From Daphnia carinata (Eukaryota; Arthropoda; Branchiopoda; Diplostraca; Daphniidae), in contig NC_081336.1 in assembly GCF_022539665.2 (NCBI RefSeq), positions 5,410,221 to 5,474,220 on the forward strand: a stretch of DNA of 64,000 nucleotides. Direction: 5' to 3'. The notes beneath the pieces were generated by a model. That model had not been told where the DNA came from. It did no database searches and saw nothing but the letters and a program-made list of their open reading frames with translations. The position numbers and the translations under genes were made by a program. Shown one piece after another: positions 13,307-57,898 of the stretch (position 1 is the first letter of the stretch; each line of letters begins with the position of its first letter).

Positions 13307-15300
13307 CAGTAGCCCATCTTCCTAATCTCCCATTGTTATCTTTCTGATTTTTAAGCCATTGAAGTGGACGATGATCACTAATGATCTCAAAAGGTTGGTC
13401 TAAAAGGTAATGTCGAAAATGCTTAATCGCATCGATAACCGCAAGTGCCTCTTTTTCAGTCGTACTGTATTTAGCTTCTGCCTTCGTTAGCTGTCTACTG
13501 GAATACGCGATTGGGTGCTCGAGACCATTTTGAATTTGAGACAGTACCGCTCCAATGCCATAATCGCATGCATCGGTGAAAAGGAAAAATTTCTCGTTGA
13601 AATTGGGGTAAGCAAGCACTGGTGGAGTCACTAGAGATGTACGCAAGGTTTTGAAAGCACTATTTTCTTCGTTTCCCCAATTAAAAGGTTTCCTGATAAG
13701 ATCTTTATGGGTTAATCTAGTCAATGGTTTAGCGATTGATTAAAAATTTTGAATAAATCTTCTGTAATACCCAGCTAGACCCAGAAATGATCTGACTTCA
13801 TCTACTGAAGCGGGCGTTTTATAATTAATTATCTTCTCAATTTTACTCGGATCAGGCTTAATACCATCAGTCGAGATCACATGGCCTAAATAATTAACTG
13901 AACTTTTAATGAACTGGCATTTTTTAAGTTTTAATTTTAAATTTGCATTTTTCAATAACTCAAAGATTTCGCGAATATCCTTCAAGTGATCGTCAAAAGT
14001 GTCCGAAAAGGTGATTACGTCATCCAAGTAAACTAACGCCTTACTTCCCAAAACGTCTTTCAGTACATAATTCATTAGTCTTTGAAATGTCGCAGATGCA
14101 TTGCATAATCCAAATGCCATACGTTTAAATTCGTAAAGGTAATTTTCTACTACAAATGCTGTTTTTTCAATAGCTGGCTTATCAACTTGAATTTGCCAAT
14201 AGCCTGAAGCTAAATCAAGAGTGGTGAAAAATTTCTTCCCATACAATTTTTCCAATGTTTCATCTATCCTCGGCATAGGGAATGAATCCTTTTTCGTAAT
14301 ACTATTTAATTTCCTATAGTCAACGCAAAATCTTACTTCTCCACCCTTCTTTTCCACTAAAACCACAGGTGAAGCCCATGGCGAATGTGAATATTGGATC
14401 ACATTAGCATTCAACATTTCCTGTACTTTATCTTCCAATATTTTTCTTTGATTATTTGTAACTCGATAAGGGCGTTGTCGAATAGGGCCTCTTCCTTGTG
14501 TATCAATTGTATGTTTAATGAGATTAGTGTTCCCTAATTCTGAATCTTTTGCTGCGAACAAGTCGTGAATGTCATTTAATAGTTTAGAGAGCGGAGCTTG
14601 AAATTCAGCGTAGACCTCTGAAATTAAAACGGGCTCACTTGTAATAGTAGGCTTTTCCTCTAATTTACTTAAAACTATTTTCCCAATTACGTTATGAATA
14701 ATCTCGATTACGCCTAATGTAGTGTTCCTAGGAAGTATGACTTGATTTAACGCATGATTCTCGACCATAATTTGATATTTCCCATCTTTAGCTACGTTTC
14801 CAATGAATTCCTCAATAAAAATACCGTTCGACAAATCCTCTGCTGGGGTAAACATAAATGTGGTATTAGGGGGGACATACGGAAATGAACCTTTCATTTG
14901 CGTTGCAATTACTAGCGAAGTCTGACGAAATAACGTCGTCTTTTTGACCGTCGTAACTGCCATGTCTGGTACCCTAGAGATGGCTGATTCCTGCTCATCC
15001 CTTGCTAAATAAATGCTCCTGGCTTCTCCATCAAGCCGAAAACCGTGCTTCTGGATTGCATCCCATCCAAGGATATAGTCTTCAGAAACACCATTTGTAA
15101 TAATAAACTCTTGTCGTAAAACTGACTCTCCGTATCGTACGGGCAATGTAACCCTTCCCAGCGTTTGTAACTTTTTGTCCCCTACATCATACAATCGAAA
15201 TCAAGCTGACTGCAGATCGCCTGACCTCTCGGGGGTAATTTCTGAAATACTCTCTCGTGAATTATACTTTTAGACGCCCCTGTAACAAATAATGCTTGTA
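13287..15300 (-). pseudogene. Gypsy protease, reverse transcriptase and RNase H
   Basis: Protease: the position of the catalytic DTG reads FVTGASKS (near 15283), so the aspartate is lost. A frame shift follows near 15190, then YDVGDKKLQTLGRVTLPV. Reverse transcriptase (13750-14500): RFCVDYRKLNS, FTTLDLASGYWQI, FGLCNASATFQRLMN and the catalytic YLDDV (near 14028) are intact. A TAA at 13740-13742 falls in frame just after RRFIQNF. RNase H continues in the same frame (FTDACDYGIGAVLSQ, EKEALAVIDAIKHFR). The motifs are clear; the protein cannot be made whole. Confidence 0.88.
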
Positions 15301-36551: not shown

Positions 36552-38085
36552 ATGGTTCCCTCATTTATGAATATCTTCTCGTTCGTCACAGCATTAACAG
36601 GATCTTCCAGCAGAGAAGAACAACCTGAACAGTTGACACCAGAAAACAGGAGCGACTTGTTACAAAAATGTAACATGACGCATCCTTTACCCCAGAATAC
36701 TTCATCTAGTACTGTTTGCCAAGCAGAGAAACCAGATGGAACTACGCCTAGGCCTAAAGCTGGATTTCGAGACACTGACTTGAAATTTTACAAAGATGAA
36801 CCGAAGCGGACAAATAGAAATCTGACTGCGGCGAAATTGTCATTAAACGAGGCAGCAGAGACGCGTCGTCAAGTCCCGAGATCAAAACCATCCCCGTTTC
36901 TTGGTCGCCGGAAAGAGCTGTTAAGAATGCTCGGCCCCCTCCCACAGACGCCGATACAGTAAGCGAACCAACGATCAACACGACACCTGCAAAGGGCGTC
37001 CAAAAGTCGAAGCTATCACAATTATTCGAGCGAATGAAAAAGAAATTAGTCAAACCGGGATTCTTGACAGAAGACAAACCCATCAAGACCAAGTCCGTGC
37101 AGGTAACAATGAACGGGCATCAAGTGGATATGGTGATTGACAAAGGCTGTGAACATTCAATCATCAGTTTAGACCAATGGCAAAAATTAGACGAGCCAGA
37201 ATTAACGCCTTTTACGAAGATCACTTTGGTCATGGCGAAGCGTACAGGGAAGTTCAAAGAGCACGTAAAATTGGATGAGCTCGTTGGATTTTTTTCTACC
37301 CCTTTGTTGAATTAGAAGGCGAATTATTTACAACCCCAATTTACGTGTCTGCAGGATATAAGGCTATGCCCAACTTCCTGGGTCGTAGACACTTCCACAA
37401 CCTCCGTTTACATAAAGAAAATGCGCATTTGATCAAAATTACACGCACAACGGGAAATGAAACGCCTCCCCAAACGCCGACAAACAAATCAGATGCCGGA
37501 CCTAAAACAGTGCTAGACTTGACCGGTTCTATGATCAATTACTTGGGGTTACGCATTGAGATGGCAAAACACAAGAATAATGAAAATCGCGAAGACTATG
37601 AGCAGTACATGTCACAGACCATAATGGACATAATGGTAGCGTTCGAGACAAAAAGGGCCGACTCCCAGAACGAATTTGAACCGCTAGTCATTGAGCTCGA
37701 AGAATCCGACAGTATCGACAACCTCAGGAAGACTTTTTCTGAGCTTAAAAATATTTATGAAAATGACAGAAGGAGGTCCTGCGAAGTTATACGTGATGCA
37801 GAAGACGAGCTTAAAAAAAAAAAAAAAAAACTTGCTTCTGCGTCATCGGAAGTAGAGCGCGCGGAACTAACCGAACTTGTCCAGCGAAGAGAAAAAGCCC
37901 TGCAAGTGATTGTCGAAAACGAAAATATGGATTTTGAGAAGAAGATGGCAGAAGTGGCTTTCGCTAAAGAAATGTTTCCGAAGCCAAAGGCAGAAAACAA
38001 GGGGAAGAAATTCTTCAAAGGACTCAAAACGATGTTTGGACATCGTTCTTCTAACAACGAAATGAAAGCAGAGGAGAAGGTCTAA
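36552..38085 (+). pseudogene. Retropepsin-like/coiled-coil gene, copy A
   Basis: ATG at 36552 (MVPSFMNIFSFVTALTG). After a Ser/Glu-rich N-terminus comes KAGFRDTDLKFYKDEPKR; then about 415 bp present in copy B are absent. Next an aspartic-protease-like fold: VQVTMNGHQVDMVIDKGCEH (37100-37160), with DKG at the usual DTG/DSG position, and AMPNFLGRRHFHNLRL at its end. The rest is long charged helices (YENDRRRSCEVIRDAEDEL; VERAELTELVQRREKAL) and a basic C-terminus (KKFFKGLKTMFGHRSSNN). Frame shifts near 36960 and 37295 (one extra T) break it, so this copy is a pseudogene. It could derive from a retroelement gag-protease or be a domesticated gene; no reverse transcriptase accompanies either copy. 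Confidence 0.55.
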
Positions 38086-48400: not shown

Positions 48401-48704
48401 CACTATTTACTTGCTGACTAAGTGTGAACGGTGAAAGCTGTGTTCGAAAGTTTCTGTTAAATATGTCATATTCCAATGGAAAACTTAAGAAAAACTAATG
48501 GTGCTTCTGTACGTTTTCATCCCTGAGTGTGTTTTAGAAGTGAAGCCCACAGAATGCTTGGTGTTTATGGTACACGTCTTTTAATCAACTATGTCAGCTG
48601 ACAAACCAAAAAACTGTTAGCAACCTACTACGTTGCATTCATAAAACTATACGAGTGCTCATTGAGAGGTATAGGACTAATGTTTTGTTATCAGAATCTC
48701 ATTG
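45401..48704. other. Right-arm DNA without a recognised complete gene
   Basis: Mirror of 28052-31353. Includes the unrecognised frames at 46146-46681 and a possible piggyBac-like C-terminal remnant at 46711-47045 (CDPISSSLA, then GSCRYCDQQKKLEVRCPES in another frame). The last 12 bases (48693-48704, AGAATCTCATTG) are the left target duplication of the non-LTR insertion. Confidence 0.45.
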
Positions 48705-51021
48705 CCACCTCGAGCACTACAACATACTCCCCTCAAGCCAAGCAGGATTTCGTAAGGGCTGTTCCACACACGACCACCTATGGGATTTGGAGAATGCCGT
48801 CACCTCGGGCTTCAACAAGAAAAAAGAAACTCACTGCGTCTTTCTAGACATTAAAAAAGCTTACGACCTGGTGTGGCTACCCGGGCTGCTCTTCAAAATA
48901 AGTCAAGCGCGAGTTACAGGGAACATCCTCAAATGGCTCCTGAACTTCCTGCTACAGCGGAAGGTTCGGGTCAAACTAGACAGTACACTGTCACATGCCA
49001 AAATCATCTCCGTCGGAGTTCCCCAAGGCTCAGTACTGGGCCCCATTCTCTTCACTATCATGACCCGTGACTTCCCCTTGTGTAGGAACCCGAAAAACAA
49101 TTTAGGCGTTATCGTCAAAATGTTCGCGGATGACATCTCAGCCCGCTGCACTCACTCCCTAAGAAGCAAAGCCCGAAAAAGGCTAGAAACTGCAATAAGA
49201 AAATTTGAAAGATGGTGTGCTACCTGGAGATTCCAAATCTCTGTGTCCAAGTGTTTCTCCATATCGTTCAGCAGAAGAATTAAGAACTACGTCCCTCTCC
49301 ATCTGACCTTTAACAGTGAGAGTATCCCTGCCGTCAGTCATGGCAAATTCCTGGGTATCACCTTTGACCGTAAGCTCAACTGGAACCAACATCTGCAAGA
49401 TTTAGTTACAAAGGTTTCTCGAAGAGCAAACTTCTTCAAAATCCTGGTTAGGAAGAATCTGAACCTGAAACCCAAACTCCTGGTCAATCTGTACACAGCA
49501 TTAGTAAGAAGCATTGTAGACTATTCTTACCTAAGTATCCTTCAGGGCAGATCTCCCCTTACCAGGAAGCTGGATACAATCCAAAACTCAATTCTTCGTG
49601 CAATCCTTCTGGCTCCAAACTCCACTCCTCGTGCACATCTGTGGCTGGACACAGGCATAACCCCCATTCATTGCAGATGTGAATGGTTAGCCTGCCTTTA
49701 CCTCATAAAGCTGCAAAGTAAACCAAAGAACCCTTTTTATGATAGTGCGAAAAGTACTTACTCTAGCCTCACCTTATGGAACACCAGAAGTACCCCAAGT
49801 GTTGTGTTGTGCAAGTTCCAACTGTTAGCTTTAAAAGTTTCCCTGTTTACCTCCGTTAGTTTTCCCGAAAATCTGCTAAATCCTCCATGGTTGATGCCGA
49901 AAATACCTACATTTATACTCCCAATCTCGAAAAACAATGCTCTTGAAAATCCAACGTTCACCAGACTACTCTTTCGAGCACTGTTTACGCAAAACAACGC
50001 CAGTTCTAGTACGGTAAGCGTCTTCACAGATGGCTCCCGTGACTTCGAAAACAACTCAACAGCATGCGCCATCTACTGCCCAAATTCTCAAGTGAAAAAA
50101 GCCTGGAAACTTTCTAGTGATACGAACATCTTCACAGCTAAATTGTTGGCTATTCTAAAGGCCATTGAACACGCTGACAACGGCCCGGCGCAGCTAATCC
50201 GGATCTTCTCGGACTCACTCAGTGCCATCTCCGCCATCAATGCTCTACACCCTTCAAACGAACTGGTGGTCAAGATTCGGAACAGGGCCTTAACCAGCTC
50301 TTCTGCCGGCTCCAAAGTTATTCTCTACTGGATTCCAAGCCATGTAGGCATTCCAGAAAATGAATTAGTGGATCGTCTGGCAAACGACGCAAGAACGGAT
50401 CCTAACTGCGAAAAAATCGATCTCGTCGACTCACCTAAACTCGCCCTAAATGTTTTTCGCATAGCATGGTCCAAGCTGATGTCTCTATACCTTGCGAGTC
50501 ACCATGACTTCTTTGCTTCTCACCCTAGGAACTCCATTCACCCAGAACCCTGGTTGGTGCACCCTAACAGAGTCAGAAACAGCATTCTTCACAAACTCCG
50601 GTCGAACCGGCTACGTTTAAACGCCCGCGTTTCGTTATTTGATCCCTCTGTATCCCCATACTGCAGCTATGGCTGCCCTGTGAAAGAGACTCCCTCACAT
50701 CTAATTATTGAGTGTCCCCACCTCGCTGCCGAAAGAGAGGAACTAAAAAGCTTCCTCTCGGAGTTAAAACTTCAGTTGAACCTATCCAATCTCCTACATC
50801 CACCGCAAGTTTGTGACAACCTCGCCAAATTCAAGATCAGGGACTTGGTTTTAAATTTCTTCTGGAAATCAGGACTCCACAAACGCTGCTAATCTAATTC
50901 AAAATCATCCCACTTTTCCGAGCAATTTCCCGGTGCCAATTTCGGTCTCCTAGGACGACCCGCTCTCGATATGGCAACGCCACACGGGAGGCACCTTAAG
51001 AAAGAAAAAAAAAAAAAAAAA
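48705..51021 (+). mobile_element. 5'-truncated non-LTR retrotransposon with RNase H
   Basis: Inserted into the right arm only. A 12-bp target duplication AGAATCTCATTG lies at 48693-48704 and 51022-51033, and the element ends in a poly-A tract. The left arm (around 28060) shows the empty site. The 5' part (ORF1, endonuclease, start of reverse transcriptase) is absent, as usual after incomplete target-primed reverse transcription. The RNase H domain after the reverse transcriptase points to the I/LOA/Daphne-like group rather than Jockey or CR1; the exact clade is not determined. Confidence 0.93.
48706..50892 (+). CDS. Reverse transcriptase-RNase H polyprotein, C-terminal part
   Basis: One uninterrupted frame of about 728 codons. 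Reverse transcriptase: SSQAGFRKGCSTHDHLW, FLDIKKAYDLVW, GVPQGSVLGPILF and the catalytic FADD (near 49124). A thumb/connection follows. RNase H: VFTDGSRDFENN (near 50020), AILKAIEHAD and WIPSHVGIPENELVDRLAN (near 50330). A cysteine-rich finger near the end (CSYGCPVKETPSHLIIEC, 50660-50715). The frame has no ATG of its own: the codons open upstream of 48705 belong to the target. With no lesions in 2.2 kb, the insertion must be young. Confidence 0.9.
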   Translation, partial: HLEHYNILPSSQAGFRKGCSTHDHLWDLENAVTSGFNKKKETHCVFLDIKKAYDLVWLPGLLFKISQARVTGNILKWLLNFLLQRKVRVKLDSTLSHAKIISVGVPQGSVLGPILFTIMTRDFPLCRNPKNNLGVIVKMFADDISARCTHSLRSKARKRLETAIRKFERWCATWRFQISVSKCFSISFSRRIKNYVPLHLTFNSESIPAVSHGKFLGITFDRKLNWNQHLQDLVTKVSRRANFFKILVRKNLNLKPKLLVNLYTALVRSIVDYSYLSILQGRSPLTRKLDTIQNSILRAILLAPNSTPRAHLWLDTGITPIHCRCEWLACLYLIKLQSKPKNPFYDSAKSTYSSLTLWNTRSTPSVVLCKFQLLALKVSLFTSVSFPENLLNPPWLMPKIPTFILPISKNNALENPTFTRLLFRALFTQNNASSSTVSVFTDGSRDFENNSTACAIYCPNSQVKKAWKLSSDTNIFTAKLLAILKAIEHADNGPAQLIRIFSDSLSAISAINALHPSNELVVKIRNRALTSSSAGSKVILYWIPSHVGIPENELVDRLANDARTDPNCEKIDLVDSPKLALNVFRIAWSKLMSLYLASHHDFFASHPRNSIHPEPWLVHPNRVRNSILHKLRSNRLRLNARVSLFDPSVSPYCSYGCPVKETPSHLIIECPHLAAEREELKSFLSELKLQLNLSNLLHPPQVCDNLAKFKIRDLVLNFFWKSGLHKRC

Positions 51022-53474: not shown

Positions 53475-55153
53475 GATGAATAACTTCACGTTCGTCACAG
53501 GATCAACAGGATCTTCCATCAGAGAAGAACAACCTGAACAGTTTACACCAGAAAACAGGAACGACTTGTTACAGGAATGTAACATGACGCATCCTTTACC
53601 CCAGAATACTTCATCTAGTACTGTTTGCCAAGCAGAGAAACCAGATGGAACTACGCCTAGGCCTAAAGCTGGATTTCGAGACACTGACTTGAAATTTTAC
53701 AAAGATGAACCGAAGCGGACAAATAGAAATCTGACTGCGTCGAAATTGTCATTAAACGAGGCAGCAGAGACGCGTAACAAACTAGAAAGGCAGATAGAAG
53801 TGAATCAGAAGCAACTTCGGTTAGCTAAGAAGAACGACATGAAGAAAATGAAAGCACTAAAAAAGTTGTTACGTCAAACGAAAAAAGAATTGATCAGCAC
53901 AAAAAAAGAATTGATCAGCACGAAAAAAATTCTGCGAATGCAGACGGCACAATACGGTAGGGAGCAAGAGCAAGAAAACAGCGCACCGGTAAATGAAACT
54001 GATTCTGCTCAAAATATTTTAGTAGACGATTCTGGCATAGCGGATGAATCTACTACCAGTGTAATTGAGCTAGTCCCGAGATCTGTTTGCCAAGCAGAGA
54101 ACAGCGCACCGGTAAATGAAACTGATTCTGCTCAAAATATTTTAGTAGACGATTCTGGCATAGTGGATGAATCTACTACCAGCGTAATGGAGCAAGTCCC
54201 GAGATCAAAAGCATCCCCGTTTCTTGGGCGCCGGAAGGAGCTGTTAAGAATGCTCGAGCCCCCTCCCACAGACACCGATACAGTAAGCGGCGCAGCGATC
54301 AACACGACACCTGCAAAGGACGTCAAACAGTCGAAGCCATCGTTCTTCGAGCGAATGAAAAAGAAATTAGTCAAACCGGGATTTTTGACAGAAGACAAAC
54401 CCATCAAGACCAAGTCCGTGCAGGTAACAATGAACGGGCATCAAGTGGATATGGTGATTGACAAAGGCTGTGAACATTCCATCATCAGTTTAGACCAATG
54501 GCAAAAATTAGACGAGCCAGACTTAACGCCTTTTACGAAGATCACTTTGGTCATGGCGAAGCGTACAGGGAAGTTCAAAGAGCACGTAAAATGGGATGAC
54601 CTCGTTGGATTTTTCTACCCCTTTGTTGAATTAGACGGCGAATCATTTGAAACCCCAATTTACGTGTGTGCAGGATATAAGGCTATGCCCAACTTCCTGG
54701 GTCGTAGACACTTCCACAAGCTCCGTTTTACATGAAGAAAATGCGCATTTGATTAAAATAACACGCACAACGGGAAATGAAACGCCTCCCCAAGCGCCGT
54801 CAACAAAATCAGATGCCGGACCTAAAACAGTGCTAGACTTGACCGGTTCTATGATCAATTACTTGGGGTTACGCATCGAGATGGCAAAGCACAAGAATAA
54901 TGAAAATCGCGAAGAGTATGAGCAGCACATGTCAGAGACCATAATGGACATAATGGTAGCGTTCGAGATAAAAAGGGCCGAGTCCGAGAACGAATTTGAA
55001 CCGCTAGTCATTGAGCTCGAAGAATCCAACTGTATCGACAACCTCAGGAAGACTTTTTCTAAGCTTAAAAATATTTATGAAAATGACAGAAGGAGGTCCT
55101 GCGAAGTTATACGTGATGCAGAAGACGAGCTTAAAAATAAGAAAAACAAACTT
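53475..55153 (+). pseudogene. Retropepsin-like/coiled-coil gene, copy B, part 1
   Basis: The first codons are lost at the rearrangement; homology to copy A starts near MNNFTFVTGSTGSS. Fuller than copy A: it keeps a Lys-rich coiled coil (53790-53950; twice KKELISTK) and a 38-residue tandem duplication (NSAPVNETDSAQNILVDD at 53980 and 54097). The retropepsin-like domain (VQVTMNGHQVDMVIDKGCEH) again has DKG. The frame is open from 53476 to 54735, then an extra T near 54727 shifts it. The second half (54740-55153: LRIEMAKHKNNENRE, YENDRRRSCEVIRDAEDEL) is open but is cut by the TIR element at 55154 and resumes at 57899. No known family assigned. Confidence 0.55.
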
Positions 55154-55673
55154 CCCTAGCAGAAACTTTGTGTCCGGATGGGGTCTGCGTCCGCGATACT
55201 CTAATTTGAACTCATTTTTCCGGACAAGTTTGCGTACTGAATACGGAATCAACTTGCTTAAGTACTTTCGGTTCGTTGTCTGGTACTAGCTTAGTACAAA
55301 TCCGGTTTTATGGACGCAGAAAAGAAGCGAAGCGCTTAAGTCCCTAGTACCAATGTTGGGCTCATTTTTTACTGGTCTCTTGTACGCTAGCACGAAAGCC
55401 GAGCGCTACAGCCCGTGGTACGAGTATTATACTCGTCTAATACTGGCCTATGTCCTCCAAATTTTCTGAAAAAATTGGGATTGATGTGGATACAAAAAAC
55501 CAGTATGAGACTCGTTTTTTCACTGGCCTACGTTCTTACAATTTTCTACAAAAATATTTGATTGATGTACAGACAAAATACTAGGATTGGACTCGTCCTT
55601 TACTGACTTTTGGAACTCATCTTGACTGGTAAAAATACCAGTATTCTATTAAAAATTTATGTGTTTCCAACCC

Positions 55674-55709
55674 CACGACGTTTCCTCTGATATCAGAGGA
55701 AACGTCGTG
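55674..55709. repeat. Perfect 36-bp palindrome inside the TIR element
   Basis: CACGACGTTTCCTCTGAT followed immediately by its exact reverse complement, with no spacer. Part of the arm (GTCGTGAAAA) repeats at 55728. Possible dimeric protein binding site or cruciform. Confidence 0.95.
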
Positions 55710-56489
55710 AAAAAGAAATATAAAGGTAGGTCGTGAAAAGATATATATCTTTTAATTCAATTATCATTTGTACTATTTATTTTTTAAAGCTAAAAGCTAA
55801 CCGGGAATGCTAGTTTGTTGACATTTACTTGTTTGTTGTACCAGCAACAAGTTATTGTAAGTGTTTTAATTAGTTGATGCAAACTGATTGTTGAGACGGT
55901 GTTCATGAAGATGAAAATCCCCTTTTGACTAATCTTCTTCAATTAATAAATAAATTTTAAATGCGGAATAAGATTGCTACAATTTTTATAACGTTTTCCG
56001 TTTGCGCATTCAGGCACGATCCAATATTGTTTAGCATCAACCTGGCCTTCCAGACAACAAAATTGTTGTCGTCTGCTTTGGAGGAAATCGATTACGTCTA
56101 ACAGGCATGCAAGGGAAAATCAATACTTAACTTTCATTCCTTTTTTTTCCTTTGTACGCGTACATGCATAATTCTAGCTTAGCAATCAAATAACCTTACT
56201 AAAAGAATTGAAAATAATTGAAAAGAAATTGTGAATACAACAGAAAATAGTTTCCCCACACATTATTTTATATTTATATAAAAAACCCGAAATGGGAAAA
56301 CTGGCAACGCCCATGCTGTCCGTATGAAATTTGTACGTATTTCACAGAAATGCTTGAAGTTCTTCGACAGAGACTCACGTTATTGTACCGTTTTGAAACG
56401 CTAAATTACACGCAGGTTTGATTTCTTGTTTAATATTCTACGTCTGGTGCAAAGTCTTTTGCATTCGTAGTGCACATTTAATATTACTA

Positions 56490-57384
56490 ATGCAAAGCTT
56501 TGACCAATTTCAAAAGATTACTGCCACCATGGATTGTGTAGTTGAAGATAACGTGTTACATACCAACCACGACATAATTCAGCAGTCACACGTTGCAACG
56601 AACATTCAGGTACACTTTTTCTTCAATGTTGTATATTATTATTAAACATTTTATGTGGTTCTAAATGTTTATCCCTAGGATGGAAGACCATTTCCAGAAT
56701 GGTGTGGAAGATATGTTACGATACAGGAAACTAATGAAAAAAGCAAACCTTCCAAATACAAAGAGCCTTCATGGTTTATCGTACAAACCTTAGAGAGGGG
56801 CTGTGACAACAATCTCTTATGTTTATACAGCTTTGTGACCCGTTACTGGTTATCAACGGACCACAAGTTTCTGCTGTACCCACCATGTACTACATCAGAA
56901 GGCAATTTGAATCCTGCGTGTTGGGGGGAAAAAACATTTGAAAGATTCCACCATCCATTCAATACTTGGCTGGAATACGATGTTCATAATATTATGAATC
57001 CAGAGAACAAGCCTGGTAAGTTTCAATTACTTTATGTGCAATTGTATTGTAATCTCTAGAATTAATTTTTATTTTGTTATTGCAGTGAATTTTACGAGAG
57101 CTTACCTACTTTTACGAGAGGAAAACGTGAAGACAGCAGTCCGCCTACAGTTGTTACGGCAATCAGAACAAGTTCCGTCATCAACATTATTCAAAGTAAT
57201 TACATTAAGGTATTTTCGAACTTAAAAATTCAAAACTTTTTTAAAATTCAGGTAGCAACAGTGGCGAACCAAGGGCCCAACTTTTGAAGCGCCAGTACCT
57301 AATACTATTTACGAGGCAGAACTGCAGTCCAAAATTGATGCTTTGGAGAAGAACATAAAGAAATTCAAAAAACCCACTGAATAA
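56490..57384 (+). CDS. Unrecognised four-exon gene carried by the TIR element
   Basis: Exons 56490-56609, 56679-57015, 57086-57195 and 57262-57384 join in phase with GT-AG introns of 66-70 bp and give 229 residues without a stop. The first ATG is at 56490; a second in-frame ATG at 56529 has a strong context (GCCACCATGG). The middle reads DGRPFPEWCGRYVTIQ, LERGCDNNLLCLYSFVTRYW, CWGEKTFERFHHPFNTWLEY; then FTRAYLLLREENVKTAVRLQLL. The end is a short coiled coil (YEAELQSKIDALEKNIKKF). Four cysteines in the middle might bind a metal. It sits inside an element whose host gene is dead, yet its frame and splice sites are clean, which suggests recent activity or selection. Function unknown. Confidence 0.6.
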
Positions 57385-57898
57385 CTTACAAATTTTTGGT
57401 TTAAATGTCCTAAAAGATGTTTTTTCTGTGTTCTCGCCATGCCGTGTTGGCCACATTGCGCCTTTCTAGTCTTTGTGCCCTGTTGTTATGTTGCCAGAAC
57501 GAACTGGATTATCAGTCATGTCATGATAAATATAAAGCAATTTGTGTTATTTTGCAGATCTTTATTTTGTGAAACTATAAAAATTTAACGTAGGGAGTAA
57601 AAGTGCATTTTAAAAACCGTCCCATAACGGATATCGGGTACGAGTATTGGGACGAGTATAGAAGATGAGCCCCGGCTGAGTCTAACGGCCGGGTATGTGA
57701 ACGGCTTTTGGCTTTTACTTAAGAGGCTCACCGTCTTAAATCTTCTTTTTTTAACCGTCCTCGATACCAGTCTAGGAGGCAGTTATGGCTGCAAACAAGG
57801 GGTCCAAATACCCGCCCGCTGGACCAGTCTAGGACTCTAGACGAGTCCTAAATACCAGTCTTGGATGGGATTTTGCCCTCTGAATTTCTGCTAGGGTT

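Follow-up and report, generated by a model that had tools for sequence, protein, structure and literature searches.

A probable non-autonomous TRC-type CACTA transposon of Daphnia carinata carrying the remnant of a putative accessory gene

CACTA elements typically encode two proteins and carry subterminal repeats (PMC8978399), and transposition of maize Spm is described as requiring both TNPA and TNPD (PMC1636069). In Tribolium castaneum, Aedes aegypti and Schistosoma mansoni (SmTRC1), the animal TRC elements are characterized by ends starting with CCC, by target duplications of 2 bp, seen in 7 of 14 SmTRC1 copies, and by truncated copies in a wide range of sizes, and conservation between their proteins resides mainly in the transposase domain (PMC1636069). 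The likewise non-autonomous copies of Spongebob (EnSpm-4N1_HM) in Hydra also combine CCC ends with 2-bp duplications (PMC4298943). In the genus Daphnia, CMC-EnSpm elements account for 0.15 % of the D. magna and 0.23 % of the D. pulex assembly (PMC8594854). The present report concerns a 2,743-bp insertion with a spliced gene (positions 55154–57896, plus strand) in a 64,000-nucleotide stretch of the Daphnia carinata genome (contig NC_081336.1, positions 5,410,221–5,474,220; hereafter the window). The element is assigned, with a probability of about 0.9, to a D. carinata family of animal CACTA/EnSpm (TRC-type) transposons, of which it represents a non-autonomous, internally deleted member. The elements of D. 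magna and D. pulex, belonging to the same superfamily and occurring in the same genus, were compared by description.

The element is delimited by the terminal inverted repeats (TIRs) CCCTAGCAGAAA (left, 55154–55165, plus strand; right, 57885–57896, minus strand), which are identical in 12 of 12 bases and have TT on either side (55152–55153 and 57897–57898). Joined to each other minus one TT, the flanks match a paralogous gene copy within the window (copy A, 37684–37983, plus strand) in an ungapped 300-bp alignment of 97 % identity; this empty site directly documents the insertion as well as its 2-bp duplication. An exact insertion of a TIR element of about 2.74 kb with a TT duplication of at most 2 bp, deduced in the initial annotation from gene copies A and B, is thus real. 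As in the TRC elements, the TIRs of the window copy start with CCC, and 9 of the 12 bases equal those of the Tribolium TRC start CCCTAGTAGCAC; the TIRs are, however, shorter (12 bp) than those described for Tribolium (27 bp) and SmTRC1 (54 bp) (PMC1636069). The Spongebob end CCCAGCCAACATTGAC differs in sequence from that of the Daphnia element (PMC4298943). Plant CACTA elements likewise possess two genes and subterminal repeats of several hundred bp, but are described with a CACTA core and a 3-bp duplication in place of CCCTA and 2 bp (PMC8978399; maize Spm, PMC1636069).

The exact 12-mer end was detected at 47 places in the 108-Mb D. carinata genome, comprising 19 convergent pairs with a spacing below 12 kb plus 9 unpaired ends, and the search for paired ends proposed in the initial annotation thereby revealed a recurrent element. 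Allowing up to one mismatch yielded 467 places versus 641 for a backward control, i.e. no excess, and only exact matches were therefore used; such an end-based scan is blind to copies with altered ends, and the CCC ends of the other copies are no separate test, since the copies were found by them. Omission of three pairs left 16 independent copies ranging in size from 2,464 to 4,763 bp. Two of the omitted pairs (C6:10320333–10323079 and C6:10566163–10568905; L019 and L020) have the same flanks as the window copy, to which they are 99.85 % and 100 % identical, and are therefore host-segment duplicates rather than new insertions: the element was already in place when the host segment was duplicated. 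The third pair (C6:5927806–5938492, 10.7 kb; L017 and L018) had been considered as a large autonomous element and was rejected, its outer ends both being right ends, inverted around a Gypsy-like polyprotein insert; its flanks share no 2-bp repeat. On C4, a diverged left end (C4:8037040, 81 %) and a diverged right end (C4:8088299, 71 %) lie in the same orientation 51 kb apart, and the 8 kb adjoining the left one on its inner side (L051) contain ORFs (open reading frames) resembling other mobile elements, as judged by eye.

Target duplications of 2 bp surround 15 of the 16 independent copies (TT, AC, AA twice, CA twice, AT three times, TG, AG, TA twice, TC and CT), a 3-bp duplication surrounds none, and the third flanking base is already unequal in all 16. 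Together with the empty site in the window, this agrees with the 2-bp duplication of TRC elements and deviates from the plant-type En/Spm pattern, from which the ends also differ (CCCTA instead of CACTA). Duplications of 2 bp likewise occur in Tc1/mariner and IS4EU/ISL2EU elements, and duplications of 5 bp in Transib/RAG-like elements. Tc1/mariner targets TA alone, whereas TA makes up just 2 of the 15 duplications observed here; 5-bp duplications were not seen. Ten siblings of 3.0–3.2 kb (L009, L010, L011, L015, L016, L023, L024, L027, L028, L029) are mutually 98.2–100 % identical, differ in their flanks and all lack the same single base pair in exon 2 of the gene described below. These data speak for a recent mobilization of defective copies in D. 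carinata, and the transposase was therefore probably supplied in trans.

Subterminal repeats extending across several hundred bp, a further trait of the CACTA superfamily, are present in the element as eight copies of ACSAGT/ACTSGT on the left (55371–55642) and six copies of ACSAGT on the right (57640–57859, plus strand). Counted on both strands, ACGAGT and ACCAGT amount to 8 occurrences within the first 560 bp, a single one in the 1,840 bp in between and 6 within the final 343 bp, compared to 0.6, 1.3 and 0.25 occurrences expected from first-order Markov resamples; none of 2000 resamples reached the count of the left or of the right end, the motif and the region borders having been picked after inspection of the sequence. 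The recurring motifs recognized in the initial annotation are accordingly well above expectation, and 17 of 18 paired copies that were read carry 4–8 of them on the left and 5–6 on the right.

Coding evidence for the superfamily comes from relatives. The longest sibling (L014, 4,763 bp) encodes the C-terminal 240 residues of a transposase in divergent orientation to the spliced gene, an ORF of CACTA-like appearance. The longer relatives with a DDE transposase envisaged in the initial annotation were hence recovered as far as this C-terminal part, and a full-length frame was not found. The group of the sibling remnant was represented by an alignment of 21 members (A1), including 20 of the 29 proteins retrieved with transposase exons on C9 (1174155–1175430, minus strand) as query; P0020, P0023–P0027 and P0029–P0031 were shorter or diverged and did not enter the alignment. 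In a profile–profile comparison, A1 matched A3, a three-row alignment of further transposase ORFs from the genome, with E 8e-55; A3 in turn matches DUF4218, below cut-off. The CACTA model Transposase_21 (PF02992) matches 4 of the 21 A1 members, below cut-off (best E 0.0011). A DDE transposase of RNase H fold, as characteristic of the CACTA superfamily, is represented by relatives of the element, whose fold resembles that of RAG1 and Transib. Elsewhere in the genome Transposase_21 matches four places, one of them over the curated cut-off and none tied to the element family; the former (C3:5206952, L052; 33.3 bits, one stop inside) marks a CACTA-type transposase at a separate locus.

Several observations weigh against the TRC assignment. 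L028 lacks a 2-bp duplication, the sole exception among the 16 independent copies, and 5 motifs on the left of the diverged copy L025 stand against 1 in its last 350 bp. Transposase sequence was undetected in the window copy, which differs in this respect from the TRC elements as described (PMC1636069), and no frame longer than 240 amino acids from a transposase of the element's own family was found in the genome. Pfam CACTA models stay below cut-off on all family relatives, and DUF1258 (3 of 21 A1 members, best E 8.6e-4) and Med23 (2 of 21, best E 0.0013) are on a par with Transposase_21. One row of A3, P0031, had been retrieved with the C9 query, so that A3 is not entirely independent. The fold of the A1 group matches RAG1, Transib and the P element, and no CACTA structure; this match therefore identifies a DDE transposase, not a superfamily. 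A search of 7.5 kb at the C9 locus revealed no CCC-type ends with a 2-bp duplication.

Two other classifications were considered in the light of these points. Membership in Tc1/mariner, IS4EU/ISL2EU or a Transib/RAG-like superfamily would accommodate the 2-bp duplications or the fold match to RAG1 and Transib, respectively; given the target sequences and duplication lengths as well as the matches of A1 to A3 and of A3 to DUF4218 (below cut-off), it is regarded as highly improbable. Equally remote appears a new superfamily or element type, to which 2-bp duplications of free sequence and a gene unlike any transposase might point. It was rejected on account of ends and duplications agreeing with those of published TRC elements and of the match between the sibling remnant's group and other transposase ORFs. 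The element had initially been placed in an unknown class, with a new element type as one option; CCC ends, 2-bp duplications, subterminal repeats, the sibling transposase remnant and a second gene instead fit animal CACTA (TRC) elements. The other option, a described superfamily whose gene is novel or captured, holds with respect to the superfamily.

The locus on C9 points to the nature of the spliced gene. With the protein of that gene as query, the genome yielded a match of 34 % at C9:1178252, roughly 4 kb away from the transposase match on C9. This match lies on the plus strand and comprises 32 % identity over 113 N-terminal residues (one stop inside) and 49 % over 41 tail residues; further minus-strand ORFs, resembling upstream transposase exons by eye, continue up to position 1177301. 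The divergent arrangement of transposase and second gene on C9 equals that in L014, and a second gene beside the transposase gene, another trait of the CACTA superfamily, is therefore present in both. Since a related transposase and a related second gene occur together at the diverged C9 locus, the window gene most likely represents the accessory (TnpA-like) gene of the element. Its protein had initially been reported to match no transposase, rightly so and as expected for a second gene. The divergent orientation distinguishes the Daphnia family from SmTRC1, the products of which are described to arise by alternative splicing (PMC1636069).

Alternatively, the gene could have been captured from the host (Pack-type element) and be unrelated to transposition. 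Relatives of the protein outside D. carinata were undetected among 5.8 billion proteins (the tool requires common 5-residue words), and two further, distant matches in the genome, C2:628076 (33 %) and C9:1415957 (30 %), each with stops inside, could be host loci. Against such a capture, which is judged unlikely, stand the diverged accessory gene on C9, located about 4 kb from a related transposase and divergent as in L014, and the ratio of exon-2 differences between copies (see below), which suits a gene once kept.

The putative accessory gene of the window copy consists of exon 1 (56529–56609), exon 2 with the N-terminal domain in common with relatives (56679–57015), exon 3 (57086–57195) and a last exon (57256–57384), all on the plus strand; when the acceptor of the last exon is used, the tail is in the frame of L014. 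Read from the ATG at 56529, the clean splice form comprises 218 codons, and use of an in-frame ATG at 56490 would give 231, rather than the 229 residues initially given; the public model P0001 (LOC130692668 isoform X2) on the window sequence is a different form of 187 amino acids. Exon 3 is longer in the siblings L014 and L009: a 65-bp deletion is common to the window copy, L012 and L013, and a further 36 bp are gone in the window copy and L012. The later part of exon 3 is consequently out of frame compared to L014 and L009, and because of these deletions its end also differs in frame from P0002, a gene model on contig C5. At element positions 2124–2126 (57277–57279), 12 siblings (L014, L025 and the ten copies of 3.0–3.2 kb) carry about 380 to 1,045 additional bp, which in L009 and L014 encode middle exons, including SSQLAEKLQWKAVPRGDDRRPGLSIF, absent from the window copy. 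An intact gene, as assumed in the initial annotation, was therefore rejected: judged by its siblings, the window gene is the remnant of an accessory gene.

That the gene of the window copy is nevertheless intact and still serves the element or the host would agree with its clean splice sites, the 218-codon open frame, the public model and an exon 2 free of indels and stops in the window copy, L019, L020, C6:5927806 and the covered part of L012. The frame-shifting deletions and the loss of the middle exons speak against a working gene, as does the ratio of nonsynonymous to synonymous differences (pN/pS) in exon 2, which amounts to 0.48–1.74 (few changes) within five window-type copies; a working gene is accordingly held to be improbable. 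Between these five copies and five others, pN/pS is 0.30–0.60 (10 of 19 compared copies were paired, some of them partly covered). Both values together suit an accessory gene that was once kept and may now be drifting. A structure model of the exon-2 domain was poor (predicted local distance difference test score 46.2, 6 rows).

In a complete element, two genes would diverge from each other: that of a DDE transposase would read toward the left end, and a spliced accessory gene, similar to TnpA of plants, toward the right end. Such an element, which was not found in this assembly, may supply the transposase in trans. The enzyme would cleave the DNA at the CCCTAGCAGAAA ends and insert the element into a target with a 2-bp stagger, and the accessory protein may assist by binding to the ACSAGT subterminal repeats.

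Among other features, the left part of the element contains a perfect 36-bp palindrome (55674–55709), which is near-complete or complete in L012, L019, L020 and L022; in L013 and L014 the alignment ends within it, at element position 541. Retrotransposons are also present in the window, as reverse transcriptase ORFs were detected at 48655–50892 (plus strand; RVT_1 and RNase_H) and 13740–15194 (minus strand; RVT_1). Upstream of the insertion, the ORF at 53476–54735 (plus strand) shows a weak match to a gag-type aspartyl protease (E 0.0023, below cut-off).

Two weak leads concern protein tails. At C6:10477926–10482400 (L047, L057) a CACTA-like transposase ORF is followed, about 1.65 kb further on the same strand, by the only match to DUF4806 in the genome at E ≤ 0.001. 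Profile comparison of the accessory tail with this stretch is weak (probability 2.7 %), the C9 accessory tail reaches E 0.08 against DUF4806 (below cut-off), and DUF4806 was unmatched at E up to 10 in the L014 tail, a C7 piece and P0002. The BAH-like lead concerns the tail of the transposase (residues 486–614 of P0003); no paper combining BAH domain, transposase and CACTA was found in the collection searched. It is conceivable, albeit doubtful, that the TnpA-like second protein of this lineage of animal CACTA elements has a diverged DUF4806 tail, in which case many arthropod DUF4806 proteins would be CACTA accessory proteins, and that the transposase itself has a BAH-like end, which could read histone or nucleosome marks and guide insertion or its timing.

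A puzzling insertion in D. carinata is thus resolved as probably one of a known kind, and its seemingly unknown gene as the likely leftover of an accessory gene. If true, the DUF4806 or BAH-like lead would provide a role for a domain of unknown function or suggest a chromatin-sensing part on an animal transposase.
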